From contig OV277868.1 of NCBI GenBank assembly GCA_922989275.2, positions 78,668,216 to 78,732,215 on the forward strand: a stretch of 64,000 bases of DNA, written 5' to 3'. The notes under the pieces are model-generated. The model made no database searches. It worked only from the letters and a program-made list of their open reading frames with translations, and had not been told where the DNA came from. Of the stretch, positions 1,656 through 50,223 are shown piece after piece (the first letter of the stretch is position 1; every line of letters begins with the position of its first letter). Position numbers and translations under genes: made by a program. This stretch comes from Gari tellinella. Its lineage: Eukaryota > Mollusca > Bivalvia > Cardiida > Psammobiidae.

Positions 1656-4076
1656 ATGCTGCGGAATATTAGACTCAAGAACTTCGTGCATTTTATAGAC
1701 GAAACGATTGAAATCAATGACGTCAGTGGTCCTGTTATTTTCATGGGAGAAAACAATTCTGGAAAAAGTTGTGTTTTTGAAGCTATACGAAGATGTATGA
1801 GCACATCAAAGAATCTTGGAATGTCAAATCCACACGCGTCAGACAAACTCATGTTTGTAACTTGCCATTTTGATACAGGAGATAACAACAGTGATGTGTT
1901 TTCGTCAGTATTTCGAATACCTGACAACTCAGATGATGAACAATACAATGAGCATGTCATAAAGATTGTTTATGTAAAGGGAAAGGACGGTAAGTATAGT
2001 AATTTTGCCATTGACATGGTGAAAGAAAACAAAGATAACAAGATAGTTTTCGCATCACTGTCAGCCAAAGCGACATCTGAACTAAAACAAATATACGAGG
2101 ATCAGGAAAACAAACTTGGTTTTGATGATGCTTTCGTAGATAAATTGGAAGAAAACCACTCTGAGATTAAACAATTCATTTATTCGAAAAACGTTGCTCA
2201 CATCGAGACAGAATGCGAAAGAATTCTGCAGCGTGACATTGACAGAATGACTGTTATAACATTTCCCATGAAAGGTATTTCGCCATATCAATGGACGGAA
2301 AGCGAAAAATTGAAAGAATGCCAGACATCAGAGAACATCAAAACTGTAACAGGGAGGGCTGAAATATTACATTGGTATCTGACTAACATTGAAAATATCA
2401 CTGACAAAGAGAAAGAAAAGGAAGACACTTATTTCAATACATTAACGGACAGATGTAGCTACGAGTTCCAAATTAACAACGACAAGATAATTGCACATAA
2501 TGGCAATTTCAAACAAGGTAAGAAGAAAGCAATTTCTATTCTGAAAATACCGGAGGGTATATACGAGGCTAAGAATATTTCAATAATTTTATCGCTTGAC
2601 CGATTTAAAACTGTTTGCCTAGAGGATGCAGACAGGGGCATGCATATCCAGATGGTCGAACGATTTAGAGATCTGGTTCTTGCTGGAACAGAAGACAAAA
2701 TCATCATTCTTACAAGCCATCAGCCGAGTTTTATTTCGCCTTGCAGCATTCCTAAAACATATCATTTTCGTCGACACAAACAAGGGAGCGAACAGATATT
2801 CAAAGTTGTTGCTATGAGAAGTATATTACCACCTGGAGGCGACAAAGTTGTTCGAATGATTTCAAGCTACAATTTTGCTATGATATTACTTGCTAGAAAA
2901 GTTATATTTGTGGAAGGGGAGGATGATTTCTTATTTCTGACATGGTTAAAACAAATACTTCTTACACATGAAATTGCTGAAGATTGTGCAAAAACATGTG
3001 CTACTACCAAACATGAAATTATGAGCGCTCTTTGCCCTCTTCATATCGTTCAAATGACAGGAGAAGCCAACAAAACTAAACTTCGTACTGTTTTCAAAAC
3101 GCTTGGAATCATTCATATCTTCCTGCTCGATTATGACGCCCTTTATAACAATATACCAAAGGCAGATGGGAAATCTAAATACGCAATTCATAATTTTCTC
3201 AAAATGTTCGAACTTGCTAGTGATGACAACAATTGCAAACGTGTTCAAGAAGATGTGTCGACATTGCAAGAAGACGGATTCTTTGTGTGGAAGAAAACGG
3301 AAAGTAGCAGCGGAACCATAGATTCAGTCGTAGTAGAATTCTGTGAAGAGGAAGGACTGGAAGATTTCTTGAAAGAGAATAATGTGATTCTGCATAAGAA
3401 ACACGACAGTAGAACATCCTCTGCGGAATTTCACATCCCTGAATCAGACGCGAAAGGAACAAAGAAACAAAACAGTAGACCATCTTCTGCAGATCTTCCC
3501 TCGGCTGCCTCAACCGCGAAAGGGTCTACGAAACAATACAGTAGACGGTATTCTGCAGATCTTCCCTCGGTTACCTCAACCGTGAAAGGGACAAAGAAAC
3601 AATACAGTAGACGGTATTCTTCAGATCTTCCCTCGGTTACCTCAGACACAAAGGGAATAACGAAACAAAGTAGTAGACCATCTTCTGCAGATCTTCCCTC
3701 GGTTACCTCAGACACAAAGGGAATAACGAAACAAAGTAGTAGACCATCTTCTACAGATCTTCCCTCGGTTACCTCAGACACAAAGGGAATAACGAAACAA
3801 AGTAGTAGACCATCTTCTGCAGATCTTCCCTCGGTTACCTCAGACACGAAAGGAATAAAGAAACAAAGTAGTAGACCATCTTCTGCAGATCTTCCCTCGG
3901 TTACCTCAGACACGAAAGGAATAAAGAAACAAAGTAGTAGACCGGCTTCTTCAGATCTTCCCTCGGTTGTCTCAGACACAAAAGGAATAAAGAACCAAAC
4001 AGTAGACCATCTTCTGAAGATCTTCCCTCGGCTGCTTCAGACGCGAAAGAGACAAAGAAAAAGAAGACCAAAATAA
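1656..4076 (+). CDS. OLD-family ATPase-TOPRIM nuclease, copy 1 (3' frameshifted)
   Basis: The 806-residue frame begins MLRNIRLKNF, the usual start of RecF/SMC/OLD ATPase heads, and the same ATG is kept in all four copies. The P-loop GENNSGKS is at residues 31-38, the signature-like PEGIYEAKNISIIL near 299-312, the degenerate Walker B VCLED at 320-324 and the H-loop LTSHQP near 352-357. TOPRIM begins with VIFVEGEDDF (Glu 420), and DYD at 492-494 supplies the DxD pair. By family knowledge, OLD proteins are ATP-regulated DNA nucleases acting in phage defence or repair; that role is inferred here. Residues from about 590 are a Ser-rich array of 22-residue repeats (SSRPSSADLPSVTSDTKGI). The array ends in a one-base deletion, so the last 26 or so residues are off-frame and the C-terminus conserved in copies 2 and 3 is lost from this frame. 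No intron is seen. Probably a damaged or variant allele, or an assembly error. Confidence 0.85.
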   Translation: MLRNIRLKNFVHFIDETIEINDVSGPVIFMGENNSGKSCVFEAIRRCMSTSKNLGMSNPHASDKLMFVTCHFDTGDNNSDVFSSVFRIPDNSDDEQYNEHVIKIVYVKGKDGKYSNFAIDMVKENKDNKIVFASLSAKATSELKQIYEDQENKLGFDDAFVDKLEENHSEIKQFIYSKNVAHIETECERILQRDIDRMTVITFPMKGISPYQWTESEKLKECQTSENIKTVTGRAEILHWYLTNIENITDKEKEKEDTYFNTLTDRCSYEFQINNDKIIAHNGNFKQGKKKAISILKIPEGIYEAKNISIILSLDRFKTVCLEDADRGMHIQMVERFRDLVLAGTEDKIIILTSHQPSFISPCSIPKTYHFRRHKQGSEQIFKVVAMRSILPPGGDKVVRMISSYNFAMILLARKVIFVEGEDDFLFLTWLKQILLTHEIAEDCAKTCATTKHEIMSALCPLHIVQMTGEANKTKLRTVFKTLGIIHIFLLDYDALYNNIPKADGKSKYAIHNFLKMFELASDDNNCKRVQEDVSTLQEDGFFVWKKTESSSGTIDSVVVEFCEEEGLEDFLKENNVILHKKHDSRTSSAEFHIPESDAKGTKKQNSRPSSADLPSAASTAKGSTKQYSRRYSADLPSVTSTVKGTKKQYSRRYSSDLPSVTSDTKGITKQSSRPSSADLPSVTSDTKGITKQSSRPSSTDLPSVTSDTKGITKQSSRPSSADLPSVTSDTKGIKKQSSRPSSADLPSVTSDTKGIKKQSSRPASSDLPSVVSDTKGIKNQTVDHLLKIFPRLLQTRKRQRKRRPK
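3470..4035 (+). repeat. 66-bp in-frame coding minisatellite
   Basis: The marker GATCTTCCCTCGG occurs at 3492, 3558, 3624, 3690, 3756, 3822, 3888, 3954 and 4019. Spacing is exactly 66 bases except the last interval, which is 65. The units encode a 22-residue Ser/Pro/Lys-rich repeat. Copy 3 has only vestigial units and copy 2 has none, so the array expanded in copy 1 alone. Confidence 0.95.
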
Positions 4077-4229
4077 AACTGTTCAACATTAAGTCTTTGA
4101 CGACGCAAAACATAAAAGTCGTTGTTGAAACACTCCTCAAAGTGTCCCTACACAGCAAGAATACTAGCAACGAAATTTATCGTCTCGTGAAATTTCTAAT
4201 TAACCCTTTCCTCCATCGAAGCGACTTTT
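3995..4229 (+). pseudogene. Out-of-frame C-terminal end of OLD copy 1
   Basis: In the next frame the sequence after about 4000 encodes the C-terminus shared with copies 2 and 3, with motifs KTKIKLFN, SLTTQNIK and SKNTSNEIYRLVKFLI. It is separated from the main frame by the missing base in the last 66-bp unit. It does not end where copies 2 and 3 end: the stop codon is displaced into a MITE A inserted at TTAA, which adds NPFLHRSDF before TAG. Confidence 0.8.
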
Positions 4230-4440
4230 AGCGTACATGTATTTGATTTTTCCTCCGCTGAAGAAAATAGTTCCAGTTTATACACTCATGAACAATTACC
4301 ATTACAAATATTTTATATAGCCTAGCAGATTTGAGCTTAAAGCAGGCTGAAAGTAAAGCAGAATGTGCCTTTATGCACATTCTGCTTTACTTATAACCTC
4401 TTTTAAGTGGTCACTTGTCTTAAAAATGAGGTAAAGGGGT
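4197..4440 (-). mobile_element. MITE family A inserted at the stop codon of OLD copy 1
   Basis: TTAACCCTTTCC begins the element and GAGGTAAAGGGG ends it, with the core hairpin at about 4336-4407. Copies 2 and 3 have an uninterrupted AATTAAGTAATTGAG or AATTAAATAATTGAG here, so this is a filled site beside two empty paralogous sites. The right-hand TTAA has mutated. Confidence 0.85.
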
Positions 4441-4639
4441 ACGTAATTGAGAAAAGAATGAAGCAATCGAAAGAACGAAGAAATATGATGATAAATGGCG
4501 AAAGTACAAATACTTTTGAAAATAGAACTTTCTTAGCATTACTAAATTTATACAAAAATTGTTTTACCCTCATTATACCGATTATAGTTCTAGAATCAAT
4601 TTCACTAAGCGCGAGCTTCTCAAACTATCTCATGTTAAT

Positions 4640-4645
4640 AATAAA
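4640..4645 (+). terminator. Candidate polyadenylation signal, OLD copy 1
   Basis: AATAAA lies in a 3' flank (TTAATAATAAAA) that is conserved after copy 2. The equivalent position in copy 3 has lost it. Only the hexamer supports this. Confidence 0.3.
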
Positions 4646-4708
4646 AATGAGATATATAACTGCTTGGTATGGCCTGCACAAACCGCACAACACTGCAACA
4701 TCATCAAT

Positions 4709-4932
4709 CATTTAGTAATCCATATGCGCCTAGTGGATTATTTCATGTTTATGTATTGGATTAGTCCATTTGTGATCTTAGGGATGCCTGGTTTAAACTT
4801 TCATTTTCGTTTTGTTTGATATATAACTCATATCAGCAAACAATGTAGTCTCTAATCAGACAACGCATTATGCAGCGACTGATCAGAGTATACACTGTTC
4901 CGATGTTCTATATATTGGGTAGTGGGTACAAA
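4709..4932 (+). mobile_element. MITE family J copy, shared by OLD units 1-3
   Basis: It contains ATGCGCCTAGTGGATTA and the core AGTCTCTAATCAGACAACGC with its mirror. The same element sits at the same place after copies 2 and 3, so this insertion predates the duplications. Terminal TTAA is eroded. Confidence 0.7.
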
Positions 4933-5267
4933 TGGACACAACAAATACATGTACTCCAAATGAGGAAATTATACAAACATACCAAAACTAGACGGGACAT
5001 TGTTAAGTTTAAGGAAGAGGAAATACGACTATTGCTATTATATAGGCTCGCTAATTGATGCCATCCATATTTACGTAGCGATTTTACAAATGCCGTAGTT
5101 TCAGTTAGCAACATTGACGGATAAACATATATTTATGCGAAATGAAACATTTTACACATAAATAACGTGCGCCTTTCTAATTCCGATGTGCTAACGTACA
5201 GTTTTATTCAAACATAAAATAGAAGTGTGTATCTCATTGAAGTTTACTCAAGAGATGGAGAACTGTT

Positions 5268-5537
5268 ACCCCTGTCAATTTAATGTTTATTCATTGGGCC
5301 CTAGTGACGCATATATGCGTCTTTTACCAAGAGTGTATCTTTGAAGAGGACACCTGTCCTATGCTAACAGTGAAGTCCCTGATCTGAGGGCTCCTGCAGG
5401 AGCCCTCTGATCAGGGTCTTCACTGTTTGTCATTTTGTAAAATATAATAAGAAACAGCCCTAAATAGTCGAAAATGGACCAACTTTTATTGCAAACTGTA
5501 ATTGTCCATTGGAAGTTTTAGGGGATAATGAGTTAAA
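5268..5537 (+). mobile_element. MITE family I copy
   Basis: The core hairpin at about 5370-5430 joins GTCCCTGATCTGAGGGCTCC to its complement and is flanked by AACAGTGAA and TTCACTGTTTG. The right end reads GGGGATAATGAGTTAA. A second well-preserved copy is at 54853-55078. Confidence 0.65.
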
Positions 5538-5591
5538 CATGCTCGCAATTTGTCCTACAGTTTCGTTCTTCTAGTGTTAACTCTGTATGAT

Positions 5592-5690
5592 ACATTGCTC
5601 ACTCTCTACAACGACACCCATTGTGAGAAACAATTGAGTGCGTTGTTCGGAGGGAGTCGATATAGGGAGGGAAATTGGTTTACAGTTATG
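5592..5690 (+). mobile_element. MITE family G fragment
   Basis: It has CTCTCTACAACGACACCC and GTTCGGAGGGAGTCG typical of the left part of family G, then stops before the central hairpin. Confidence 0.6.
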
Positions 5691-6065
5691 ACAGTCGTTA
5701 TGACAGTTTCGACTGTATGTCTTATATATATATATATATTATCATTATAAAACTAATTAATGTTTATAATTCAATGCCAATAAAGCATGAATTATATCTA
5801 TGCATTATTAAAACATAAAGCATGAATTATATCTATGCATTATTAAAACTATGTTAGGAAAAACATAAATGGTCATTATATCTTGTAGAAAAGCATTTGT
5901 CTGTCAAGCAAGGGAATTACTTGTAAAGACCTATGATTTTAAGAACCCAATATGGATTTTACTAACCCCATATTTGTTATTGGGCCTTCACGTCACCTCT
6001 ATTGACTAATGGAATGACTAGAATTGAGTAGGCGGTAAGATTATAGGATTTCTGTATATGTTAAA
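5691..6065. other. AT-rich spacer, no gene seen
   Basis: It contains a TATATA run near 5727 and a direct duplication of ATAAAGCATGAATTATATC at 5778 and 5816. No coding signal or mobile-element end is recognised. Confidence 0.4.
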
Positions 6066-6312
6066 CAGGGGCCCGTTTCATAAAACTTCGTTCGACAAAA
6101 ACGGTTGTAAGTCAAAACTTTCAAATACATGTAATTTCTGATTTCTCTATCTAATCCCGTCTTGTTACATCTCTTTGGATTAGTCTTTTCAAGACCATTC
6201 CAAAGAGATGTCACAATAAAGGATTAGATGGAGAAATAAATAATAATTGAGACTTTTATAATCTGACTTACGATAACATTTGTCGTACGATGTTTTATGA
6301 AACAGGCCCCTG
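6066..6312. mobile_element. MITE family L copy
   Basis: The ends are near-perfect inverted repeats, CAGGGGCCCGTTTCATAAAA and TTTTATGAAACAGGCCCCTG. The interior is also largely palindromic around CATCTCTTTGGA. Diverged relatives lie at 7133-7340 and 34005-34199. Confidence 0.85.
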
Positions 6313-6404
6313 GACAAAGTTTTAGTTTAGCCTCAAAATGATCTTTAGTCAGCAGACATTCACTGATTGGTGATTTTGGTGTAATACATGTGTGCCAGAG
6401 AATA

Positions 6405-6545
6405 GATGCAAGACAGATGGCAGCTTGAAGCGGGCTGAAAGTATATCGGAATGCGCATTTAAACGCATTCTGTTTTGCTTTCAACCTGCTTCAGGTGGTC
6501 ACCTCTTTTCAATACTAGAAATATACCATGGCGTCAAGGCTTTAA
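6405..6545. mobile_element. MITE family A fragment
   Basis: A degenerate core hairpin at 6424-6494 (AGCGGGCTGAAAGT and GAATGCGCATTTAAACGC) is followed by the GGTCACCT segment typical of family A. The outer ends are lost. Confidence 0.6.
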
Positions 6546-6666
6546 CGTAGCATTGGTATGGTCCTTCTTATTGATACGAAATTTCACTGGTCTAGATCTT
6601 TACTATTTGTAATAACGTCGTTTTATTTGAGCTTTATCTGGCCTCTACCTATTGAATATTCTTATA

Positions 6667-7016
6667 TACAGCGCTCCCTCTCTACAACGACACCCAATGG
6701 GAGACACAGATTGTGTGCGTTGTTCGGAGGGAGTCGTTATAGGGAGGGAACTTATTTTACATTTGCAAACAGCTTGAATCCAGAGCAGACGCCGCGTCAC
6801 GCGGCGTCTGATCTGGATTCAAGCTGTTTGTCATTTGTCATTATGTTTTTTCTGTCAAAATGTAATTTATGTAAGAAAAACAGCAGACAACAATATTTAG
6901 TAGACGATGATGCATCAGTTCAAGCATAAAACATAATGTTCTTGGGAACAGTGGCGAATGTCGTTGTAAGGAGGGAGTCGTTGTTCGGAGGGACGTTGTA
7001 GAGAGGGAACGCTGTA
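6667..7016 (+). mobile_element. MITE family G, well-preserved copy
   Basis: It runs from TACAGCGCTCCCTCTC to GAGAGGGAACGCTGTA with TA at both ends. The centre is a nearly perfect hairpin of AGCTTGAATCCAGAGCAGAC and its complement around CGCCGCGTCACGCGGCG. At 350 bp it is the most complete copy and serves as the local reference for the family. Confidence 0.9.
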
Positions 7017-7132
7017 AATAACAAACCTTGAAATACGGAAATTCTCATAATGACACTAAAACAATGTATTTTATATTCAGACTAGAAGGTTTATTGTAAT
7101 CATGATAACGGAAATACAAATGTAAAACACAA

Positions 7133-7340
7133 CCCTGGGACCCGTCTTACGAAAATTCTTACAACAAATATTCCCGTAAGTCAGATTCTAAAATTCTCAA
7201 TTATTATTTATTTCTTCATCTAATCCTGTTTTGTGACATCTCTTTGGAATCGCCTTGAAAAGACGATTCCAAACAAAATATCACAAGACAGAACAGAATG
7301 GAGAAATTGGGAATAAGATGTATTTTAAAGTCTTGACTAT
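7133..7340. mobile_element. MITE family L, diverged copy
   Basis: It starts CCTGGGACCCGTCTTACG and has the internal palindrome TCTTTGGAATCGCC / GGCGATTCCAAA-like. A copy at 34005 has similar flanks (CATGATTACGGAAAT type), so this insertion is old and was copied with the block. Confidence 0.6.
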
Positions 7341-7469
7341 TTATCTTATCACCATTTTGACTAGTGTAATCATTTTGGAGCCATTTTGCTTATCAGATAA
7401 AAACAAACTCTGGAAAGTTCAAAAAAAGTTTCTCTTTCTCGAATCTATTGAATTACAGTTTATAGATTT

Positions 7470-7720: not shown

Positions 7721-7739
7721 GGTTTGCGTTGTGTCTCAT

Positions 7740-7987: not shown

Positions 7988-8014
7988 ACGGGAAAGAATA
8001 ACGTCTTACCCACA

Positions 8015-9610: not shown

Positions 9611-9611
9611 A

Positions 9612-13249: not shown

Positions 13250-15151
13250 ATGCTGCGGAGGATACGACTGAAGAATTTCGTGCATTTTGTAGATGAAACG
13301 ATTGAAATTAACGACGTCAGTGGTCCTGTGATTTTCATGGGAGAAAACAATTCTGGAAAAAGTTGTGTTTTTGAAGCTATTCGAAGATGTATGAGTACAT
13401 CAAAGAGTCTAGGTATGTCAAATCCACACGCGTCAGACAAAGTTATGTTTGTAACTTGCCAGTTTGATACCGGAGGTAACAACAATGACGTGTTTTCGTC
13501 AGTGGTTCGAATAGCTGACAACCCAGATGATGAACAATACAATGAACATGTAATACGGAGTGTGTATGTTCAGGGTGAATGTAGTGAGTTTGCCATTGAC
13601 ATTGTGAAGGAAAACAAAGATAACAAGATAGTTTTCGCATCACTGTCAGCAAAAGCCACAGCAGAACTTAAACAAATATACGAGTATCAGGCAGACAAAC
13701 TTGGTTTTGGGGATGATTTTATAGATAAATTGGGAGAATACCACTCTGAGATTAATCAATTCATTACTTCAGAAAAGGATGATCAAATCGAGACAGAATG
13801 CGAACGAATTCTGCAGCGTGACATTGACACAACGACTGTAGTAACATTTCCAATGAAAGGTATTTCGCCATATCAATGGACGGAAAGCGAAAAATTGAAA
13901 CAAAGTCAAACACCAGAAAACATTAAAACTGTAACAGGGAGGGCTGAAATATTGCATTGGTATCTGACTAACATTGATAGTATCACTGACAAAGAGAAGG
14001 AAAAGGAAGAAACTTATTTCAATACATTAACGGACAGATGCAACTATGAGTTCCAAATTAACAACGACAAGATAATTGCACATAATGGCAATTTCAAACA
14101 AGGTAAGAAGAAAGCAATATCTATTTTAAAAATACCGGAGGGTGTATACGAGGCTAAGAAGATTTCGATCATTTTATCGCTTGACCGATTTAAAACTGTT
14201 TGCATTGAGGATGCAGACAGAGGCATGCATACCCAGATGGTCGAACGATTTAGAGATCTGGTTCTTGCTGGAACAGAAGACAAAATTATCATTCTTACAA
14301 GCCATCAGCCGAGTTTTATTTCGCCTTGCAGCATTCCTCGAACATATCATTTTCGTCGACACAAACAAGGCACTGAGCAGATATTCAAAGTTGTTGCTAT
14401 GAGAAGCATACTACCATCTGGAGGTGACAAGGTAGTTCGAATGATTTCCAGCTATAATTTTGCTACAATATTTCTTGCTAGAAGAGTTATATTTGTGGAA
14501 GGGGAGGATGATTTCCTATTTCTGACATACCTAAAACAAATACTTCTCACACAAGACATTGCTGAAGATTGTGCAAAAACATGCGCTACTACCAAGCATG
14601 AAATTATGGGAGCTCTTTGCTCGCTTCATATCGTTCCAATGACAGGAGAAGCCAACAAAGCCAAACTCCGTGATGTTTGCGAAACGCTTGGAATCATTCA
14701 TATCTTCCTGCTTGATTATGACGCTCTTTATAACAATATACCAAAGGCAGGTGGGACATCTACATACGAAATTTATAACTTTCTCAAAATGTTCGAACTT
14801 GCTAGTGATGACAACAATTGCGAACGTGTTAAAGAAGATGTGTCGACATTGCAAGAAGACGGATTCTTTGTGTGGAAGAAAACAGAAAGTAGCAGCGGAA
14901 CCATAGATTCAGTCGTACTAACATTCTGTGATAATGAAGGGCTGGGAGATTTCTTGAAAGAGAATAATGTGAACCTGCATAGGAACACAACAGGAACAAA
15001 GAAAAAGAAGACCAAAATAAAACTGTTCAACAATAAGGACTTGACGACGCAAAACATAAGAAACGTGGTAGAAAAACTCCTCAAAGTGTCACTACACAGC
15101 AAGAATACTAGTAATGAAATTTGTCGTCTCGTGAAATTTATAATTAAGTAA
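13250..15151 (+). CDS. OLD-family ATPase-TOPRIM nuclease, copy 2 (intact)
   Basis: From the ATG of MLRRIRLKNF, the position shared by all copies, the protein is 633 residues; a longer frame from 13193 adds 19 unconserved residues. The P-loop GENNSGKS is at 31-38, the signature-like PEGVYEAKKISIIL, the VCIED Walker B and the LTSHQP H-loop follow, then TOPRIM VIFVEGEDDF (Glu about 417) and DYDALYNN (Asp about 489 and 491). Catalytic motifs are complete, so an active ATP-gated nuclease is plausible. The Ser-rich repeat tail of copy 1 is absent: FLKENNVNLH runs almost directly into the Lys-rich KKKKTKIKLFN and the conserved C-terminus. The frame has no intron, signal peptide or membrane segment. 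No GajB-like helicase lies nearby, so it resembles stand-alone (class 1) OLD proteins. Function is inferred from motifs only. Confidence 0.88.
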   Translation: MLRRIRLKNFVHFVDETIEINDVSGPVIFMGENNSGKSCVFEAIRRCMSTSKSLGMSNPHASDKVMFVTCQFDTGGNNNDVFSSVVRIADNPDDEQYNEHVIRSVYVQGECSEFAIDIVKENKDNKIVFASLSAKATAELKQIYEYQADKLGFGDDFIDKLGEYHSEINQFITSEKDDQIETECERILQRDIDTTTVVTFPMKGISPYQWTESEKLKQSQTPENIKTVTGRAEILHWYLTNIDSITDKEKEKEETYFNTLTDRCNYEFQINNDKIIAHNGNFKQGKKKAISILKIPEGVYEAKKISIILSLDRFKTVCIEDADRGMHTQMVERFRDLVLAGTEDKIIILTSHQPSFISPCSIPRTYHFRRHKQGTEQIFKVVAMRSILPSGGDKVVRMISSYNFATIFLARRVIFVEGEDDFLFLTYLKQILLTQDIAEDCAKTCATTKHEIMGALCSLHIVPMTGEANKAKLRDVCETLGIIHIFLLDYDALYNNIPKAGGTSTYEIYNFLKMFELASDDNNCERVKEDVSTLQEDGFFVWKKTESSSGTIDSVVLTFCDNEGLGDFLKENNVNLHRNTTGTKKKKTKIKLFNNKDLTTQNIRNVVEKLLKVSLHSKNTSNEICRLVKFIIK

Positions 15152-27856: not shown

Positions 27857-27931
27857 GGCCCGGTGGTTCAGTCGGTAGAATACTTGCCCTGTAAGCAAGG
27901 GGTCCCGGGTTCGAGCCCCGGTCTGGCTGCA
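27857..27931 (+). tRNA. tRNA-Thr(UGU)-like sequence in 5' LTR, probable pseudogene
   Basis: Box A TGGTTCAGTCGG and box B GGTTCGAGCC match Pol III promoter consensus. The anticodon arm CTTGC-CCTGTAA-GCAAG gives TGT, but U33 is replaced by C. The T arm pairs fully, the acceptor stem only partly, and ATTTTT follows as a possible Pol III terminator. Confidence 0.55.
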
Positions 27932-28131
27932 CATTTTTCTCACCATGTTACATTTGGCGCCCAACGTAAATAACCCGTAGGATAATATGTAACTCGTAGA
28001 GTGTACAGAAATAATAATAATAAGAAACCCGTGGAGTGTTCTTTAGTAAGAATTCGGGACGAATTCTTGTGTAGAGGGGGGTGTGTAGCCGGGTTTAGTA
28101 TATGATTCAATGGTGAGAGATTTATGTAAGC

Positions 28132-28206
28132 GGCCCGGTGGTTCAGTCGGTATAACACTTGCTCTGTAAGCAAGGGGTCCCGGGTTCGAGCCCCGGTCTG
28201 GCTGCA
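28132..28206 (+). tRNA. tRNA-Thr(UGU)-like sequence in 3' LTR, probable pseudogene
   Basis: It is the second copy of the tRNA-like module with loop TCTGTAA, the same boxes and the same TTTTT after it. It differs from the first copy at a few bases only. Confidence 0.55.
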
Positions 28207-29859: not shown

Positions 29860-31914
29860 ATGCTGCGGAAAATTAGACTAAAGAACTTCGTGCATTTTTT
29901 AGACGAAACGATTGAAATCAATGACATAAGTGGTCCTGTGATTTTCATGGGGGAAAATAATTCTGGAAAGAGTTGTGTTTTTGAAGCTATTCGAAGATGC
30001 ATGAGCACATCAAAGAATCTTGGTATGTCAAATCCACACGAGGCAGACAAACTTATGTTTGTAACTTGTCAATTCAATACCGGAGGTAAAAACAATAATG
30101 TATTTTCGTCAGTGGTTCGAACAGCTGACAACCCGATTGGTGAACAATACAATGAACATGTTTTTAAGATTGTACATGTCAAGGGACAGGACAATGATTG
30201 TAGTGAGTTTGCTATTGACATTGTGAAAGAAAACAAAGATACCAAGAAAGTTTGCGCATCACTGTCACCCAAAGCGACATCTGAACTTAAACAAATCTAC
30301 GAGGATCAGAAATACAAACTTGGTTTTGATAATGCTTTCGTAAAAAAATTGGGAGAATACCACTCTGAGATTAAACAATTCATTAATTCAGAAAACGATG
30401 ATCAAATTGAGACAGAATGCGAAAGAATTCTTAAGCGTGAAGTTGACAGGACGACTGTTATAACATTTCAAATGAAAGGTATCTCGCCATATCAATGGAC
30501 AGAAAGCGAAAGGTTGAAACAAAGCCAGACATCAGAGAACATCAAAACTGTATCAGGGAGGGCTGAAATATTGAATTGGTATCTGACTAACATTGGAAAT
30601 ATCACTGACAAAGAGAAAGAAAATGAAAACTTTTATTTCAATACATTAACGGACAGATGCAGCTATGAGTTCCAAATTAACAACGACAAGATAATTGCAC
30701 ATAATGGCAATTTCAAACATTGGAAGAAGAAAGCAATTTCTATTCTGAAAATACCGGAGGGTATATACGAGGCTAAACAAATTTCGATAATTTTATCGCT
30801 TGACCGATTTAAAACCGTTTGCCTAGAGGATGCAGACAGAGGTATGCACACCCAGATGGTCGAACGATTTAGAGATCTGGTTCTTGCAGGAACAGAAGAC
30901 AAAATAATCATTCTAACAAGCCATCAGCCGAGTTTTCTTTCACCTTGCAGCCTTCCTCGAACATATCATTTTCGTCGACACAAACAAGGCACTGAGCAGA
31001 TATTCAAAGCTGTTGCTATGAAGAACATTCTACCATCTGGAGGTGACAAGGTAGTTCGAATGATTTCCAGCTATAATTTTGCTACAATATTTCTTGCTAG
31101 AAGAGTTATATTTGTGGAAGGGGAGGATGATTTCCTATTTCTGACATACCTAAAACAAATACTTCTCACACAAGACATTGCTGAAGATTGTGCAAAAACA
31201 TGTGATACTACCAAGCATGAAATTATGGGAGCTCTTTGCTCGCTTCATATCGTTCCAATGACAGGAGAAGCCAACAAAGCCAAACTCCGTGCTGTTTGCG
31301 AAACGCTTGGAATCATTAATCTCTTCCTGCTCGATTATGATGCCCTTTATAACAATATAAAGAAGGCAGATGGAAATTCTACGTACGCAATTTATGGTTT
31401 TCTCAAAATGTTCGAGCTTGATAGTGATGACGACAATTGCAAACGTGTCGAGCAAGATGTGTCCACATTGCAAGAAGATGGATTCTTTGTGTGGAAGGAA
31501 ACAGAAAGTAGCAGCGGAACCATAGATTCAGTCGTACTAACATTCTGTGAAGAAGAAGGACTGGAAGATTTCTTGAAAGCAAATAATGTGAAACTGCACA
31601 GGAAACGAGACAGCAGAATATCTTCTGCGAAACTTCACACGGCTGCCTCAGACGTGAAAGGAACACAGAAACAAGATAGTAGACCATCTTCTGTAGAGAC
31701 AATCGATAGTTTAGCATCTTCTGAAGAACTCTCCTCAGCTTCCTCAGACGCTAAAGCAAGAAAGAAAAAGAAGACCAAAATAAAACTGTTCAACAATAAG
31801 TCTTTGACGACGCAAAACATAAAAGACGTTGTTGAAAAACTCCTCAAAGTGTCACTACACAGCAAGAATACTAGTAACGAAATTTATCGTCTCGTGAAAT
31901 TTCTAATTAAATAA
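29860..31914 (+). CDS. OLD-family ATPase-TOPRIM nuclease, copy 3 (intact)
   Basis: A 684-residue intact frame. Domains in order: ATPase head with P-loop GENNSGKS (31-38); a long insert with QWTESERLK near 212-220; signature-like PEGIYEAKQISIIL (299-312); Walker B VCLED (320-324); H-loop His 355; TOPRIM VIFVEGEDDF with Glu 420; LLDYDALYNN with Asp 492 and 494. A Ser-rich linker (about 585-635) holds vestiges of the copy 1 repeat (QDSRPSSVE), then a Lys-rich stretch and the conserved C-terminus KSLTTQNIKDVVEKLL. All expected ATPase and metal-binding residues are present. It sits in the second block of a tandem segmental duplication, 16.6 kb from copy 2, and shares a 173-bp identical stretch with copy 2 across TOPRIM. 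Defence or repair function is inferred from the family. Confidence 0.9.
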   Translation: MLRKIRLKNFVHFLDETIEINDISGPVIFMGENNSGKSCVFEAIRRCMSTSKNLGMSNPHEADKLMFVTCQFNTGGKNNNVFSSVVRTADNPIGEQYNEHVFKIVHVKGQDNDCSEFAIDIVKENKDTKKVCASLSPKATSELKQIYEDQKYKLGFDNAFVKKLGEYHSEIKQFINSENDDQIETECERILKREVDRTTVITFQMKGISPYQWTESERLKQSQTSENIKTVSGRAEILNWYLTNIGNITDKEKENENFYFNTLTDRCSYEFQINNDKIIAHNGNFKHWKKKAISILKIPEGIYEAKQISIILSLDRFKTVCLEDADRGMHTQMVERFRDLVLAGTEDKIIILTSHQPSFLSPCSLPRTYHFRRHKQGTEQIFKAVAMKNILPSGGDKVVRMISSYNFATIFLARRVIFVEGEDDFLFLTYLKQILLTQDIAEDCAKTCDTTKHEIMGALCSLHIVPMTGEANKAKLRAVCETLGIINLFLLDYDALYNNIKKADGNSTYAIYGFLKMFELDSDDDNCKRVEQDVSTLQEDGFFVWKETESSSGTIDSVVLTFCEEEGLEDFLKANNVKLHRKRDSRISSAKLHTAASDVKGTQKQDSRPSSVETIDSLASSEELSSASSDAKARKKKKTKIKLFNNKSLTTQNIKDVVEKLLKVSLHSKNTSNEIYRLVKFLIK

Positions 31915-40549: not shown

Positions 40550-42432
40550 GATTCATACAAAAAGTAGTGTCTTGTGTAAACTTAAGTGCCCCCTAACTTG
40601 GAATAAAATTACAAAGGACAACAACCAAGAAAATAGCTCTTATTATTTGGAAGTTATGTTCTTGACAAGCCTAAATTGGATAAAAAATATAACAACAAAG
40701 GGAAATAACTCCAAAAATACGGATGAAACAGTAGAGGTTCTTATGCACTGCACTCCTGGTAAATGAGATCTAACTGTATATGAAGTTATAAGTCAATAGC
40801 TCTTACACTTTGGAATTTATGCTCCGGACAAGCCTAAATTGGATAAAAATATAACAACAAAGGGAAATAACTCCAAACATACTGATGGCAGAGTAACGGT
40901 TTTTGCGCACTGCACTCCTAGTCAATGAGATCTATCTGTATATACATTGTGTAGTTTGAAGTCAATAGCTCTTATTTTTTCGAAGTTATGCTCCGGATAA
41001 GCCTAAATTGGGTAAGAATATATCAACAAAGGGTAAAAACTCCAAAAATACTGATGACAGAGTTATGGTTCTTGTGCGCACTCCTAGTCAATGAGATCTA
41101 TCTGTATATGAAGTTTGAAATCAATAGGTCTTATTAATTTGAAGTTATGCTCCGGACAAGCCTAAATTGGATAAAAATATAACAACAAAGGGCAATAATT
41201 CCAAAATACTGATGACAGAGTGAATGTTCTTGCGCAATGCACTCCTAGTCAATAAGATCTATCTGTTTACGAAGTTTAAATTCAATAGCTCTTTTACTTT
41301 TGAAGTTATGCTCCCGACAAGCCTAAATTGAATAAAAAATATAACAACAAAGGAAAATAACTCCAAAATTACTGATGACAGAGTTAATGTTCTTGCGCAT
41401 TGCACTCCTTGTCAATGAGATCTAACTATATATGAACAATGAAACCAATAGCTGCTATTCATTTGAAGTTATGCTCCGGATAAGCCTAAATTGGATAAAA
41501 ATATAACAACAAAGGACAATAACTCCAAAAATAGTGATGACAGAGTGAAGTTATTGCGCAATGCACTCCTAGTCAAAAAGATCTATCTGTATACGAAGTT
41601 TAAATTCAATAGCTCTTATACTTTGGAAGTTATGCTCCCGACAAGCATAAATTGAATAAAAATATAACAAAAAGGGAAATAACTCCAACAATACTGATGA
41701 CAGAGTTAATGTTCTTGCGCATTGCACTCCTTGTCAATGAGATCTAACTATATATGAACAATGAAATAAATAGCTCTGATTCATTTGAAGTTATGCTCCT
41801 GACAAGCTTAAATTGGGTAAAAATATAACAACAAAGGGCAGTAACTCCAAAAATACCGATGACAGTGTTATGGTTCTTGTGCACTGCACCCCTTAGCAAT
41901 ATGATCTATCCGTATATGAAGTTTGAAGTCAATAGCTCTTATACTTTGGAAGTTCTGCTCCGGACAAGCCTAACATGGGTAAAACTATAACAAAAAGGGA
42001 AATAACTCCAAAAATACTGATGATAGGGTAACGGTTCTTGCGCACTGCACTCTTGGTCAATGGGATCTATTTGTATATGAAATTTGAAGTCAATAGCGCT
42101 TATACTTTGGAAGTTATGCTCCGGACGAGCCTCAATTCGGTAAAACTACACGTATAACAACAAAGGAAAATGACTCCAAAATTACTGATGCCAGAGTTAT
42201 GGTGCTTATAAACTGCACTCCTAGCCACAAAGATCTATCTGTATATGAAGTATGAAGTCAATAGCTCTTATTATTTGGAATTTATGCTCCGGAAAAGCCT
42301 AAATTGGGTAAAATATAAAAACAAAGGGCAATTACTCCAAATGTACTGATGACAGAGTAACGGTTCTTGTGCACTGCACTCCTAGTCAATAAGATCTATC
42401 TGTATATGAAGTTTGGAGTCAATAGCTTACAT
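40550..42432 (+). repeat. Satellite array, unit about 162 bp, about 11 copies
   Basis: The landmark ATGCTCCGGA (with variants) falls at 40655, 40819, 40988, 41147, 41308, 41471, 41632, 41793, 41956, 42116 and 42284, so units are 159-169 bp. Other shared words are ATATAACAACAAAGG and AGTCAATGAGATCTATCTG. The array ends next to the right TIR. Confidence 0.93.
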
Positions 42433-43163: not shown

Positions 43164-43351
43164 GTAGTTGAAATACCAAACAATTAAATTGAGATATAAA
43201 AGCAGACGTTTATTGTCTTAAACTGGTGACGTCATGGCAGTGAAGGAGTTAAAGAGTTTCTTATATATTCAACGCTTAGAACACCCTGATACATGTAAGT
43301 TGGCACCCGTCTGCACCTCAGCCTTTAAACGTTTGGTGATGTATAAATAAC

Positions 43352-44298: not shown

Positions 44299-44619
44299 CA
44301 AATGACCGTGACCAGATCTTTAAGTCTCTATTGTTCTATGATCCAAAAATGATTACTCGCCAGTTACATGTAAGTATCTTTATTCTGTGTGAACGTAGCG
44401 AGCGATCGCACACACTTTGGATCAGTATCAAATACCGTGTAAATTCGCACGGGAAACTCCACATTTGAAATATGACAGAAAACTCTATTTTATATTTGTG
44501 TTAAAGTTTCTTATATTAAACCACATAGATGCTATTCTGTAAGCTTAAGTGTTTCGAAGTGTACAGAGATACTGTATTTGGTAACACGGTTAAAACGATT
44601 TTGTAACTTGACTCTGATA

Positions 44620-44827
44620 TACAGTAAAACATCTATATTACGGCCACTAAAATGGAGGCTAATAAGTTGAATAAAAGTCAGGTGACTGCTTAAAACAAGA
44701 CGACTTTAAACAGAAAGCTCCTATAGGAGCTTTCTGTTTTACTTTCATCTTCCTTTGAGCAGTCAACTGCCTGATACACCTGATAATTAATACAATTTAG
44801 TGGTCATAATAAAGAGGTTCTACTGTA
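44620..44827. mobile_element. MITE family F copy
   Basis: TACAGTAAAACATCTA and AAGAGGTTCTACTGTA. The empty paralogue at about 22508 reads CTGAAATATCTACATG, so this also inserted at TA after the duplication. Confidence 0.9.
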
Positions 44828-44935
44828 TCTACATGTCTACTTCGCTCTGTAAAATACAACCTAGTTTAGTTTATTGAGTAGCGAGCGTGTATGTGTGTCT
44901 TAAGATTTATATGTTTTATATTATGGGGTAAGTGC

Positions 44936-44936
<1 letters not shown>

Positions 44937-44963
<27 letters not shown>
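44937..44963 (+). repeat. (AAT)n microsatellite
   Basis: About nine ATA/AAT units at a place where the paralogue near 22605 has none. Confidence 0.9.
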
Positions 44964-44966
<3 letters not shown>

Positions 44967-45097
44967 TAAATAATAAAAAAAAACTTTATAACAAATACAA
45001 ACAACGTAGGGTCAAAAGTTTTCTAATCATCTTCTATTTTATTTGTAGTTTTAAATTTATACATGCCATTTAGCGTTTAGATAATGGTTATGTTCTA

Positions 45098-45315
45098 TTA
45101 ACCCTTATCCTGCTGATCGCGACTTCAATGGCTTTTTCAAACAGTTTGGATCCAGATCAGACGCCGCATAACGCGGCGTCTGATCTGAACCCACACTGTT
45201 TGGCACTCGTCTTTAGGTTTCTTGAATCAAAAATTGTATAAATCTAAATTCAACCAATTTTGCAGACGACAATTTCAAATAAGACGACTTTTCAGCAGGA
45301 TAAGGATTAGGTTAA
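45098..45315. mobile_element. MITE family E copy
   Basis: TTAACCCTTATCCTGC at the left and GCAGGATAAGGATTAGG at the right. The core is TTTGGATCCAGATCAGACGC with mirror. Confidence 0.85.
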
Positions 45316-45368
45316 GAATAACCCTTGCCATCAATGTTATGATGACCTATTTCCGATTAATCCATTCC

Positions 45369-45622
45369 CAGGGCTGCCACTTCTCCAGATTTTTCCTAAA
45401 TCTTCGGATATTTCGTACTACATGGTAGCTTAAAGCAGGCTGAAAGTAAAGCAGAATGCGCCTTAAGGCGCATTCGGCTTTACTTCCCACCTGCTTTAAG
45501 TAGTCAAGTGTAAAAAAAACTTGAAACAGACGATGGGGTAAAGGTACTATTCGGAAATTCGCACATGAAAATGCAAATTTGGAAATCTTAGGATTTTTCA
45601 TTTTTAACTTATGGCAGCCCTG
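45369..45622. mobile_element. MITE family B copy
   Basis: CAGGGCTGCCACTTCTCC and TTATGGCAGCCCTG form its ends and CCTAAATCTTCGGAT recurs inverted inside. The centre is the family A hairpin (GCAGAATGCGCCTTAAGGCG), although the ends are unrelated to A. Confidence 0.88.
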
Positions 45623-46580
45623 AATTCCTCATTGAAACGTTTTTTCATGATTCTACCTCGTCATGATAAACAGCCTCAGAAAGAGTAACTATGCTAAAGA
45701 AATTAATATCGGGCCTTTTTATGACCGCCTCCTCCCTACGTTGTTAAAAATACAACCCAAACTACCAAACAACCCAACTCGCAACCGGATGGTGTACTTG
45801 TCAAAATAAAATAAAATACTCAAATAAAAGCAAATTTGTGGCATTATTTGGCTTCTGACATTAAAAAATATGATCAGTCCAAATAAAGTCTCAAGAATCG
45901 ACACCGAATCTTAGTTGTTTTAGATATTTTCCATCGTTTTTCTATAGCGTTAGCTAACGGTATAGTTGTTATTGTTGCTTCTCTACACGGGCTCAGACAT
46001 AAACCCAAGCCGAATAAAGTATTATCGATCGCTACCAGTGAAGTACGTTAATTCGCTACCATATATAAAGAGAGCGCTGGTAGCAGAGGTGGTAAAGGCA
46101 TTACCTCATTTGACATATTTTAACAAATTACTATTTTTAATGCTAAATCCGGTTGCGAGCCTCTTTAAATTCCTAAAAATATAATCACATAAGGCTTATA
46201 AATGGTGAATTAAGCCTAAAATCATTGTAAACAAAATGTTAAATTAGAAAAAAAAATATACGGTGTTTTTTTTCAAGGGGGGCAACTCGTACACAACTTA
46301 AGATATCTACATGTATATACAGTTATTACTAAATAAAAACCCATTAACCAGTAAAGTAATTTGGGGAGGTTTGGAGAGGTTTGGGGTCGTTAGACTGGCC
46401 GGTGGCAAAGTCATCTTAGTCAGTCTAGAAAGGCTTTTTCATACTCATAATCATTAATCAATGAGTTTTGCAAACCAAAACACTCTTCACTGGTTATTTG
46501 CACAGACATTCATCTGATTTTGCATACTTTTAACCTGACTAAGTGTAAGCACCGAAACTAGGTCAGGAAGTATATATAAG
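45623..46580. other. Spacer, no gene seen
   Basis: AT-rich sequence with short incidental frames. No element end is recognised. Confidence 0.4.
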
Positions 46581-47067
46581 TGTAACGTGTACCGGGCCGA
46601 CGGTAAAGCCTGTCGGTTACCCATTCAGGTACTAACCGCACAGGACGTTGCTTAACTTCGCAACCGAGACAAACGCTTAGACAATCTGGCTATTAAAAAG
46701 CCGGCTTCCACAGTCAGACTGTAGAAGTGTTTATATACCGTCCATTTCCGTCACATTTCTCCCCCTTTTCTCTTGACTTCGCCCCGAGGTCACCCTGCTC
46801 ACATGGCAGTCCTAAGGGCAGAGACAATGCGACATGGATCCGGGGATGATGGTGATGTCATCCCATATCCCACCGCCACCGCTGCCACCAAATTTGTAAC
46901 GTGTACCGGGCCGACGGTAAAGCCTGTCGGTCACCCATCCAGGTACTAACCGCATAGGACGTTGCTTAACTTCGCAACCGAGACAAACGCTTAGACAATC
47001 TGGCTATAAAAGCCGGCTTCCACAGTCAGAATGTAGAAGTGTTTATATACCGTCCATTTCCGTCACA
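46581..47067 (-). mobile_element. Miniature LTR element (TRIM), reverse orientation
   Basis: Two direct repeats of about 174 bp (46581-46755 and 46895-47067) begin TGTAACGTGTACC and end TTCCGTCACA. On the minus strand, the 5' LTR end is followed by TGGTGGCAGCGG, a primer-binding-type site ending at a tRNA CCA, and the 3' LTR is preceded by AAAAGGGGGAGAAA, a polypurine tract. The LTR has TATATAAAC as a possible TATA box. The internal part is about 139 bp and non-coding. No clean target duplication is seen. Confidence 0.85.
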
Positions 47068-47224
47068 ATAGCAAATCCTTTGATTAAGTGATCATAAGGG
47101 TTAATTTGATTATCATCCCGCATTAAGAAATATCCTCGTCTAACCACTGAAATAAGGATATGGGACGTTACAAAAGAGGCTAAAGATTTTGGAATAAAAG
47201 CTCTGAATATCAATGTTCTGTCTC

Positions 47225-47938
47225 TTTTGCAGAAGATAATACTATAGATCTGGTGAAAGAAAACTCTCTGTTATTCATTTCCGATTTCGAAATAACTGTA
47301 GTAATCTTAATCAAGACCTCTTTCAAAATTATCTTAGAGATCGAGAAATTAGCGAATGTGGTTTTGAAACAGAATATGCCGAGCATTATTGGTTCCAATG
47401 TCATCTCCATGCAAACGCAAGGCATAGACTCTTCCGATCAATCCACAATTTCCATCCTCTAAACATCCATTTACTTCTTTCAGGCTCAATCAATCTCTGT
47501 GACGACGAGAATCGACATATCTTTTCTTCTGTCCAGACGTACATTAAGGATACAAACAGATGTATGCCCTCTTAATTAAGTTGGCGTTGCAAAACCCTTA
47601 CCAACAAGACAGAACTAACATCTATCCCCATTTCTGTTTTTTTCTTTTTCCTTTTATTTCTAAGATATATGAAAACTGATTATTCATTTGTCTATTTCTG
47701 GAACCTTTCATAACATTGTTTCATTGTTTATCTTTTTCATTGCTTTTTTATCATATTTATTGACCTTCAACAAAGTATACAAAATAGTCAGGTAATAATT
47801 GTAGATAAGCAGACGTCATATGATGTAAACGTATTAGAAAGGGACTACCATGAGCTCATTTGAATTGTTATATCAACTTTTGTACAAATATTGGGCAATA
47901 AAATATGTTTAAACTAACTTTAACTTTTTGCAGAAGAT
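47225..47938 (+). mobile_element. 5'-truncated LINE with 13-bp target duplication
   Basis: The direct repeat TTTTGCAGAAGAT is at 47225-47237 and 47926-47938. Between them lie a reverse-transcriptase C-terminal frame, a T-rich 3' region and AATAAAATATGTTT at the 3' end. This is the expected form of a target-primed LINE insertion lacking its 5' part. Confidence 0.8.
47240..47575 (+). pseudogene. LINE reverse-transcriptase C-terminal remnant
   Basis: The 111-residue frame contains ERKLSVIHFRFRNNCSNLN, SECGFETEYAEHYWFQCHL and HPLNIHLLLSG. The spacing Cys-Gly-x-Glu ... His-Tyr ... Cys is the zinc-binding tail common in non-LTR retrotransposons of invertebrates. The rest of the polyprotein is missing. 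Family knowledge supports the call; the clade is not assigned. Confidence 0.75.
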
Positions 47939-48219
47939 GCTTCAGGAAAAGACGTCATATGAAGGATGTCGTTCACCAATTCGTCTGACATGTTAGGAAC
48001 AACTGAAATGCCACAATGTCAAATAATGCTTGAGGCATGGATACGACTATTTAATTTGTTCAAACAATTACTCTATCGTTCGTCTATTGAAATAATGTTT
48101 CATTCGTCCGAAACAATACCCACTGGTTCATTCGTCGATAAATCATCGGCTTCATTATTGGTAAGTTTTGGGTAACATTTATTTCCCTGTTCGCTTCATC
48201 CATTTATCACCGATTCAAA

Positions 48220-50223
48220 ATGTTGAGAAGTGTGAGACTCAAGAACTTCGTACATTTTAAGAATGAAACAATTGAAATTGAAACAGATAGTCGTGCTGTA
48301 TTTTTCATGGGAGAAAACAATTCCGGCAAGAGTTGTGTGTTTGAAGCTATTCGAAGATGTATGAGCACATCAAAGAGTCTTAGTATGTCAAATCCACACG
48401 AGGCAGACAAAGATATGTTCGTGACATGCCATTTTTCGAACGAGAACAAGCAGGTGTATTCATCAGTTATTCGACCAGCTGACAGCCCAAACCGTAAGCC
48501 GTGTGATGAGCACGTGGTGAAAATTGTGTATGTTAATTTTGAAGATCGCTCTAACAGTTGTTTTGCCATGGACATTGTGAAGGAAACAAAAACTCGCCTA
48601 ATTGTCAATCAAGCATTATCAGAAACATTAACATCTGAGCTAGAAGAGCAATACAAACACAGCCCAATTGATGACTTCGTACAAACAGTTTTACAGAATA
48701 CAAACGTCTGGGGTGAGATACAACAATTCGTCAAACCTGAAAGCAATGCCGCAGCATATCGCCAAGAAACAAAATGCGAGACGTATCTAAAGAAGCATGT
48801 TGATGAAACAACTGTGATAACGTTTCCAATGAGAAGTATTTCCCCTTATCAATGGACAGAAAGTCATAGATTACAACATCAACAGACACCGGACAACATA
48901 AAAGATGTATCAGAAAGGGCCGAAATATTGTCTTGGTATCTAAAAACCGAATCGGATGTCACTGACAAGGAGAAAGAAAGGGAAAAGCGGTATTTCGAAA
49001 CATTAACAAATATGTGCAGCTTTGAGTTTCAGATTGATGAAGAAAACAATATCATAGCGCTGAACGGTAATTTCAAAGATGGTGTAAAGAAGGCAATATA
49101 TATTCTGAAAGTTCCGGAGGGTATCTACGAGGCAAAGAAAATTTCTATAATATTAGCGCTTGAACGATTTAAAACCATCTGTTTCGAAGACCCAGACAGA
49201 GGAATGCACACACAAATGGTAGAACGGTTTAGAGATTTGGTTCTGCATGGAATTGGTGACAAAACCATCGTCGTTACAAGTCACCAGCCAACTTTCCTCT
49301 CACCATGGACTATTCCTCATACGTTCCATTTTCGCAGACACAAACAAAGGGATGAGCAGACGTTTAAAGTTGTAGCTCTGAGAAGCATTAGTACGGATGG
49401 GCCACCCGGAGGCGAGAAGATGGCTCGAATTATCTCAAGCAGAGATTTACCAACAATCTTCCTGGCTAGGCAGCTTTTATTTGGGGAAGGGGACGATGAT
49501 TTCTTGTTTATGAAAGCACTGCAACAAATTTTGCTCACAAGTGACATTGCGGAAAAATGCTCGGAACAATGTAATACCACAGTAGAAAAGCTTAGAAGTG
49601 CCATTTGTCCTCTTCATATTGTTCCCATGACAGGAGAAGCCAACAAATTGAAATTTCGTTACATTTGTAAGAAGCTTGGGATAAGTCATCTCTTCATGAT
49701 CGACAATGATGCCCTCTATAACAATATAAAACGACCAACACGTCAATCACACACATCCGAATACAAAATATATCCGTTTCTCTGTGAATACGAAATTCCT
49801 AAACTTGATGATAAGGAATTTTGCCAAGCGGTTGAAGACGACGTTTCAGCGTTGGAAGAGAGTGGGTTCTTTGTGTGGAAGAAATCGGAACAATGTTCCG
49901 GGAAAATAGATTCAGTCGTTATACAGTTCTGTGCAACGGAAGGACTGATAGAATTCATGAGAAAAAACAATGTTAATCCATTTAAGAAAACAAAAGATTC
50001 AGACATACCTAAAAATGACAATGAAATAGCTGCCTACATAGCTAAACAGATGGTGAAAAAGAAAAACATCTTTACCGATCATGACTTGAGCAGTCAGAAC
50101 ATCACAGACGCCGTGACAAAACTTGTTGAACAATCACTAGTCAGCAAAAATACTGATAACGAGATTTTACGATTTCTAAAATTTCTCAGTAAAGCCTGCG
50201 ATGGACAAAACAGTGGACCATGA
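48220..50223 (+). CDS. OLD-family ATPase-TOPRIM nuclease, copy 4 (divergent)
   Basis: A 667-residue intact frame opening MLRSVRLKNF. P-loop GENNSGKS is at 31-38, the signature-like PEGIYEAKKISIIL at 299-312, Walker B ICFED at 320-324, H-loop His 355, TOPRIM LLFGEGDDDF with Glu 423, and MIDNDALYNN with Asp 495 and 497. Compared with copies 1-3 the TOPRIM strand has Gly before the Glu (FGEGD for FVEGE). The middle region and C-terminus differ widely (IAAYIAKQMVKKKNIF), and there is no Ser-rich repeat. The 5' flank is not the one shared by copies 1-3. It is the oldest-branching copy here, 18.4 kb from copy 3. No intron is seen in the coding region. Confidence 0.88.
   Translation: MLRSVRLKNFVHFKNETIEIETDSRAVFFMGENNSGKSCVFEAIRRCMSTSKSLSMSNPHEADKDMFVTCHFSNENKQVYSSVIRPADSPNRKPCDEHVVKIVYVNFEDRSNSCFAMDIVKETKTRLIVNQALSETLTSELEEQYKHSPIDDFVQTVLQNTNVWGEIQQFVKPESNAAAYRQETKCETYLKKHVDETTVITFPMRSISPYQWTESHRLQHQQTPDNIKDVSERAEILSWYLKTESDVTDKEKEREKRYFETLTNMCSFEFQIDEENNIIALNGNFKDGVKKAIYILKVPEGIYEAKKISIILALERFKTICFEDPDRGMHTQMVERFRDLVLHGIGDKTIVVTSHQPTFLSPWTIPHTFHFRRHKQRDEQTFKVVALRSISTDGPPGGEKMARIISSRDLPTIFLARQLLFGEGDDDFLFMKALQQILLTSDIAEKCSEQCNTTVEKLRSAICPLHIVPMTGEANKLKFRYICKKLGISHLFMIDNDALYNNIKRPTRQSHTSEYKIYPFLCEYEIPKLDDKEFCQAVEDDVSALEESGFFVWKKSEQCSGKIDSVVIQFCATEGLIEFMRKNNVNPFKKTKDSDIPKNDNEIAAYIAKQMVKKKNIFTDHDLSSQNITDAVTKLVEQSLVSKNTDNEILRFLKFLSKACDGQNSGP

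Follow-up and report, generated by a model that had tools for sequence, protein, structure and literature searches.

A window of 64,000 bp from the bivalve Gari tellinella (by which we mean the whole stretch analysed, C13:78668216-78732215, on the 80.2-Mb contig OV277868.1, here C13) carries four genes for stand-alone OLD-type proteins, each joining an ABC ATPase and a TOPRIM domain in one chain. They belong to a constrained multi-copy family with members on three large contigs. Our preferred reading, held with a little more confidence than doubt, is that this family forms an animal branch of OLD enzymes, acquired long ago, amplified in bivalves and working as stand-alone ATPase-nucleases, most likely in the restriction of foreign DNA. 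The original prediction, made from the letters alone, had placed four plus-strand frames in the window, all sharing one order of motifs, and the sequence check recovered both the frames and the order. The features of the four genes are:

1656..4076, + strand: copy 1 (W1), OLD-type ATPase-TOPRIM frame, 806 amino acids; TOPRIM Glu 2913-2915, DxD 3129-3137; the tail has been changed by the repeats and by a frame shift
3444..4060, + strand: 66-bp tandem repeat in copy 1, 9.4 copies (Tandem Repeats Finder), encoding a Ser-rich 22-amino-acid unit (SRPSSADLPSVTSDTKG...)
13250..15151, + strand: copy 2 (W2), 633 amino acids; P-loop 13340-13363, Walker B to D-loop 14195-14230; TOPRIM Glu 14498-14500, DxD 14714-14722
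14417..15148, + strand: C-terminal TOPRIM and helical domain of copy 2, folded alone
29860..31914, + strand: copy 3 (W3), 684 amino acids; TOPRIM Glu 31117-31119, DxD 31333-31341
48220..50223, + strand: copy 4 (W4), 667 amino acids, an older paralogue; TOPRIM Glu 49486-49488, DxD (DND) 49702-49710

Simulating 64 kb 60 times with a first-order Markov model gave a longest stop-to-stop frame of 198 amino acids (median 136), so frames of 633 to 806 amino acids are not chance products. Copies 1-3 are 76-86% identical to each other at the amino acid level and 55-60% identical to copy 4; copies 1-3 are close duplicates, and copy 4 is older. In copy 1, the family-type C-terminal end resumes in another frame, at 3941-4231, past the repeats. 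Ser-rich repeats are also present in P0007, one of the relatives described below, but there they lie ahead of the TOPRIM domain, and the protein has a hydrophobic C-terminal segment as well.

Domain architecture and active site

Hidden Markov model searches identified an AAA/ABC ATPase and an OLD-like TOPRIM domain above the Pfam curated cut-offs in all four copies, with 28.8 to 32.8 bits for AAA_21 (cut-off 27) and 24.1 to 25.3 bits for OLD-like_TOPRIM (PF20469, cut-off 23.2). With PADLOC, Old was the top model for each copy, with many GajA models ranking behind. NCBIfam gave weak matches far under the cut-off for three copies (RecF or PtuA) and none for copy 3, and a sequence search of the PDB with a single copy returned nothing significant (best E-value 0.12). 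The four copies share, in this order, the P-loop GENNSGKS, an EG-xx-EA segment at the place expected for the ABC signature, a Walker B-like [ILF]ED, a D-loop His, the H-loop TSH, a TOPRIM EG with an Asp four residues on, and DxD.

Conservation of these residues extends to an alignment of 21 members with a mean column identity of 25%. AAA_21 was found in all of them, and the P-loop G-x-N-x-[ST]-G-K, the E-A of the signature-like segment, the H-loop His and the TOPRIM Glu with its acid four residues on are kept in 21/21. The DxD is present in all 20 full-length members; it also aligns in P0002, the frame of which is cut short and lacks a TOPRIM match. P0002 is likewise the one member missed by PF20469 at an E-value of 0.01 (20/21 found). 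The D-loop His is kept in 20/21 members, and a late Asp or Glu, a candidate for the metal-B acid, aligns in 18 of the 20 members with data. Of the features of OLD membership, the N-terminal ABC ATPase, the C-terminal TOPRIM domain and the TOPRIM Glu, +4 acid and DxD were found. Regarding the exceptions, the paralogue C13_78463 (L017, at C13:78.46 Mb) retains the TOPRIM Glu and DxD but has neither the D-loop His nor the late acid, with Gln in place of the latter; it is possibly a regulatory or inactive copy. C13_34966 has Lys in place of the late acid, and C1_90993 has Glu in place of the TOPRIM Gly. In the alignment used (A3), the L017 row begins 16 residues ahead of the Met and that of L009 one residue ahead, L015 carries an N-terminal extension, and L012 and L014 are without the first Met.

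In the available text of PMC7049728, the ATPase activity of Thermus scotoductus OLD (TsOLD) needs the Walker A Lys, Walker B Glu, D-loop His and H-loop His, while killing by P2 OLD needs the TOPRIM acids (E398/E402/D453/D455) and a Lys. The family profile aligns with TsOLD across Walker B, H-loop and TOPRIM. By analogy with these enzymes, the family would perform ATP-regulated, two-metal DNA cleavage.

Predicted structures

AlphaFold2 models of copy 2 at full length (mean predicted local distance difference test, pLDDT, 79.1; predicted TM-score, pTM, 0.78) show an ABC ATPase and a TOPRIM domain, and OLD nucleases top the Foldseek list. In the full-length VIA structure list, the best 50 rows held no OLD/GajA chain and contained Rad50, SMC and PtuA/retron ATPase heads instead. 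This is no evidence against OLD; since ATPase heads filled the list, the TOPRIM and helical part was folded alone (pLDDT 82.8, pTM 0.81), and the TOPRIM fold was present in this isolated model. In the copy 2 model, the ATPase is interrupted by helices (about 134-261). Helical segments also come after the TOPRIM core, and Class 2 domains are the better match to this part. Together with the Pfam matches, these models support the OLD-type ATPase-TOPRIM architecture originally predicted, for which the lack of a TOPRIM fold had been named as a refutation.

Genome distribution and copy number

The window lies within a 1.6-Gb assembly of 80 contigs. Its place in an 80.2-Mb contig of an assembly of this animal-like size, together with a GC content at third codon positions (GC3) near background, ruled out bacterial contamination, and the animal-type genome originally proposed is borne out. 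Foreign composition is not evident, because the GC3 of the four copies (0.35-0.38) is close to the background GC of 0.364. Across the genome, the family occupies three large contigs (C1, C12 and C13), where we found 14 open frames besides a decayed copy and two fragments:

Open frames: four in the window, one at C13:78.46 Mb, one at C13:34.97 Mb, five on C1 and three on C12
Decayed copy: C13:78.31 Mb
Fragments: C1:90.997 Mb and C13:78.553 Mb

Four different family queries gave the identical 14 open frames and decayed copy, and the counts are lower bounds; the genome search listing comprises 21 rows, fragments among them. The PF20469 model alone, run on the whole genome, recovered 4 of the 14 members above its cut-off and nothing else, and is a weaker finder than the family queries. 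Each open frame spans the whole coding region without introns. The tandem family of the original prediction stands as an amplified four-copy cluster, but the family is not tandem only, being dispersed over C1, C12 and C13 as well. Pseudogenes were set aside for 13 of the 14 frames, which are open over the whole domain order, the closest pairs also by their substitution rates (below); copy 1 has an open frame, yet its tail is frame-shifted. Assembly haplotigs were rejected too, the closest pairs (synonymous divergence, dS, 0.17-0.50) being judged too distant for alleles.

Constraint and duplication

Of the 91 pairs among the 14 frames, 11 had a dS below 1.6, and in these the ratio of non-synonymous to synonymous divergence (dN/dS) was 0.22-0.42. 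The synonymous excess over four independent pairs was overwhelming (p = 1e-67). The family is under constraint, and selection is purifying. The frame-shifted tail of copy 1 was counted in the pairwise dN/dS and left out of the test by protein part. We also considered whether the helical insert evolves faster, as an arms race would have it, and rejected this: its pooled pN/pS was 0.36, against 0.21-0.50 in the other parts (Fisher p = 0.14). The pattern of host-parasite conflict read into the sequence by the original prediction is not borne out by these tests, which gave purifying selection and an insert that is not significantly faster.

Copies 1 and 2 have about 460 bp of downstream flank in common (89%), and copies 2 and 3 about 280 bp upstream plus several downstream blocks. 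The weaker blocks may be dispersed repeats. The common flanks fit segmental tandem duplication in DNA rich in miniature inverted-repeat transposable elements (MITEs). With 14 open frames and flanks shared among copies 1-3, the amplification originally proposed is confirmed. As for the repeats themselves, a palindromic MITE-like unit of 84 bp (CAAACAG...GATCAGACGCC...GGCGTCTGATC...CTGTTTG) occurs in 25 copies within 1069-59943, a second palindromic family in the window has 12 copies of 93 bp, and a satellite-like array at 40632-42427 repeats a 161-bp unit about 11 times (81% matches).

In the tree, the 21 animal-type sequences form one clade (100/100) against seven prokaryote-type OLDs. Ten of the 14 genome copies make up one clade (97/95); the other four, the C12 trio and C13_34966, are placed among the branches of the relatives, which indicates that duplication began before the lineages split and continued locally. 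The tree is midpoint-rooted, C13_34966 sits on a long branch, and the long branches converge towards the prokaryote side; the seven prokaryote-type OLDs are those returned by the searches and are so called from their sequence.

Relatives and origin

Seven close relatives came out of the protein searches. Two are uncharacterised bivalve proteins (Ruditapes philippinarum LOC132729032 and Saccostrea echinata LOC133192606), three lie on large contigs and two on short ones. Two of the seven, P0001 and P0003, seem to be neighbours in another genome. P0008-P0009 and P0010-P0015 are prokaryote-type OLDs by sequence that cover 7-29% of the query, those of P0010-P0015 with E-values of 1e-9 to 7e-6. The phage and plasmid collections contained no close relative, and the 65 pattern matches in prokaryote genomes yielded 0 confirmed ones. 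What stands of the horizontal acquisition originally proposed is the separation of the animal-type clade from the seven prokaryote-type OLDs; a single old acquisition would fit this tree, and its direction and donor we infer.

A viral donor was rejected, as three viral contig scans gave no close relative, despite a giant-virus lead in Foldseek; one scan was empty, and, read by eye, the one hit of the second was a phage Rad50-like protein and the seven loci of the third were ordinary phage or bacterial OLDs. The Foldseek comparison with viral models was led by Catovirus A0A1V0SA06 (E-value 5.8e-15), followed in second place by Terrestrivirus A0A3G4ZNS6, an 'ATP-dependent endonuclease' (4.8e-14). 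On these model comparisons, OLD-like enzymes in giant viruses may merit attention.

Neighbouring sequence and OLD class

The original prediction noted no helicase partner nearby, and we agree: matches to the UvrD-helicase model (PF00580) occurred only on C59 and C17, with none on the family contigs C1, C12 and C13, although exons of multi-exon genes could escape such a search, for which 13 of 14 control genomes gave matches. The match at C59:10900-11676 is a strong, uninterrupted UvrD-helicase domain (E-value 5.8e-76), and C59 is possibly a bacterial contaminant contig. The window contains 76 frames of at least 85 amino acids, many of which overlap the four genes; 10 long frames other than these genes were searched and showed no Pfam domain, with the same proviso on exons. 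Rfam identified only two tRNAs in the window, and no retron cassette was identified there, no retron-specific search having been made. The two are tRNA-Thr(TGT), located at 27857-28205, 275 bp apart and above the Rfam cut-off, and are either genes or tRNA-derived repeats. Beside paralogues on C1 and C12 we found near-identical long frames (L011:5758-6999 and L013:247-1257), retroelement polymerase-like by eye, and their likeness suggests recent copies.

OLD nucleases are known chiefly from bacteria, in which several counter phages. Descriptions of them cover bacteria, phages and archaea, and they are classified by partner as having none (Class 1), a GajB helicase (Class 2) or a retron (Class 3); P2 Old is the single established anti-phage case in the stand-alone class, according to the accessible part of PMC10568477. 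Class 4 is PARIS, in which ATPase and TOPRIM are encoded by two genes (PMC12796447, in the portion available). The family resembles Class 1 (P2 Old and TsOLD, PDB 6p74) in its stand-alone gene, its ABC ATPase followed by TOPRIM in one chain, the positions of the Walker B Glu and D-loop His, and a degenerate ABC signature. It resembles Class 2 (GajA, PDB 8sm3; Xcc and Bp OLD TOPRIM, 6njw and 6nk8) in domain order, in the TOPRIM with a helical C-terminus and in the active-site Glu and DxD, but a GajB-like helicase was not found near it. An ATPase and a TOPRIM fold are also common to the retron-Eco8 OLD effector (Class 3) and to PARIS AriA/AriB; the retron that goes with the former was not seen in the window, where none was searched for, and, unlike PARIS, the family has both domains in one frame and not in split genes. 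Thus, it is Class 1-like by context and leans towards Class 2 by TOPRIM shape. The GajA label of the original prediction is not upheld, as stand-alone OLD and GajA are resembled about equally in fold and sequence. Since no GajB-like helicase was found on the family contigs, these are stand-alone OLD-type nucleases and not Gabija.

The name 'ATP-dependent endonuclease' is often given to OLD proteins. A gene so named in Anthozoa and derived by horizontal gene transfer is, by name only, a comparable animal case and may be an OLD relative, but its source is given as a dinoflagellate (PMC4878875, Table 1, in the part accessible). Cran1, an archaeal OLD ATPase, is likewise encoded by a cellular genome and has a helical insertion in its TOPRIM domain, going by its description in the available text of PMC12796447, but it is an essential archaeal cell-cycle gene. 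Among the literature matches listed, with few subscription journals covered, there was no report of OLD/TOPRIM nucleases in bivalves. The accessible portions of PMC11249213 do not mention Gabija, TOPRIM, GajA or OLD nuclease, those of PMC13142454 do not mention Gabija, TOPRIM or OLD, and those of PMC13342648 do not mention endonuclease, TOPRIM or OLD.

Proposed function and alternatives

Amplification together with preservation of the genes suggests a role in defence or DNA handling. In the mechanism we propose, the source would most likely be a prokaryote or a prokaryote-derived intermediate, long ago, and local and dispersed duplication in bivalves would have amplified the genes. The SMC/Rad50-like N-terminal ABC ATPase, with its helical and probably dimerising insert, would sense the state of a nucleotide or of DNA and control the C-terminal two-metal TOPRIM nuclease, so that DNA would be nicked or degraded. 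A repertoire of diverged paralogues could in this way provide cell-autonomous restriction of foreign DNA, such as DNA viruses and mobile elements. Defence is our leading proposal for the role of the family and the least certain part of it; a reading of conflict is favoured by the turnover among the many copies, some of which are decayed or degenerate. We put forward more tentatively, and with more doubt than confidence, a narrower version in which a prokaryote-derived OLD enzyme domesticated by bivalves constitutes a diversified, cell-autonomous DNA-restriction repertoire with no helicase, retron or split partner.

Several results weigh against the preferred reading. No residue could be identified as the counterpart of the catalytic Lys/Arg, P0006 matched the TOPRIM model weakly (16.9 bits, under the cut-off), and overall identity to prokaryote-type OLDs is 13-17%. 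Full-length TM-scores against OLD/GajA chains are modest (0.34-0.42), with a large root-mean-square deviation, so that the domain arrangement either differs from that of OLD/GajA or is badly predicted in the model. The isolated TOPRIM model had no Foldseek match counted at an E-value of 0.001 or less (best 1.0e-3). No part of the protein stands out for diversifying selection (pN/pS by part, four pairs), and a housekeeping role in DNA metabolism fits the constraint equally well.

That role is the strongest of the alternatives, albeit a rather unlikely one: the same animal OLD ATPase-nuclease would have taken on a task in DNA repair, in recombination or in the control of the cell cycle. Cran1, essential for cell-cycle progression in archaea (PMC12796447, available part), offers a precedent. 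A multi-copy family with a decayed copy, two fragments and one copy missing two expected active-site residues is unlike a single-copy essential gene.

We regard it as improbable that a mobile element, or an old endogenous virus, carries the genes as cargo or for an accessory protein and thereby spreads intronless copies. Intronless copies on three large contigs, MITE-dense surroundings and the retroelement polymerase-like frames seen by eye near some paralogues (L017, L011 and L013) speak for it. The flanking blocks common to copies 1-3 are what segmental duplication would leave, however, 10 further long frames searched in the window carry no Pfam domain, and the phage, plasmid and viral collections lack a close relative, the weaker matches being, by eye, a Rad50-like protein and phage or bacterial OLDs. 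Least probable of all are catalytically dead descendants, in which the ATPase would persist as a DNA-binding or signalling protein after loss of the nuclease, since the substitutions in C13_78463, C13_34966 and C1_90993 fit such a decay but the TOPRIM Glu and +4 acid (21/21) and the DxD (20/20 full-length) are kept despite a mean column identity of only 25%.

If the preferred reading of an animal OLD branch is correct, the OLD module would join the modules common to prokaryotic defence and animals, and on the narrower, more tentative version bivalves would possess an animal arm of OLD/Gabija-type immunity. As a constrained, multi-copy animal family that keeps the core TOPRIM active-site residues, these genes would provide a natural setting in which to test whether an OLD enzyme acting by itself suffices for antiviral action.
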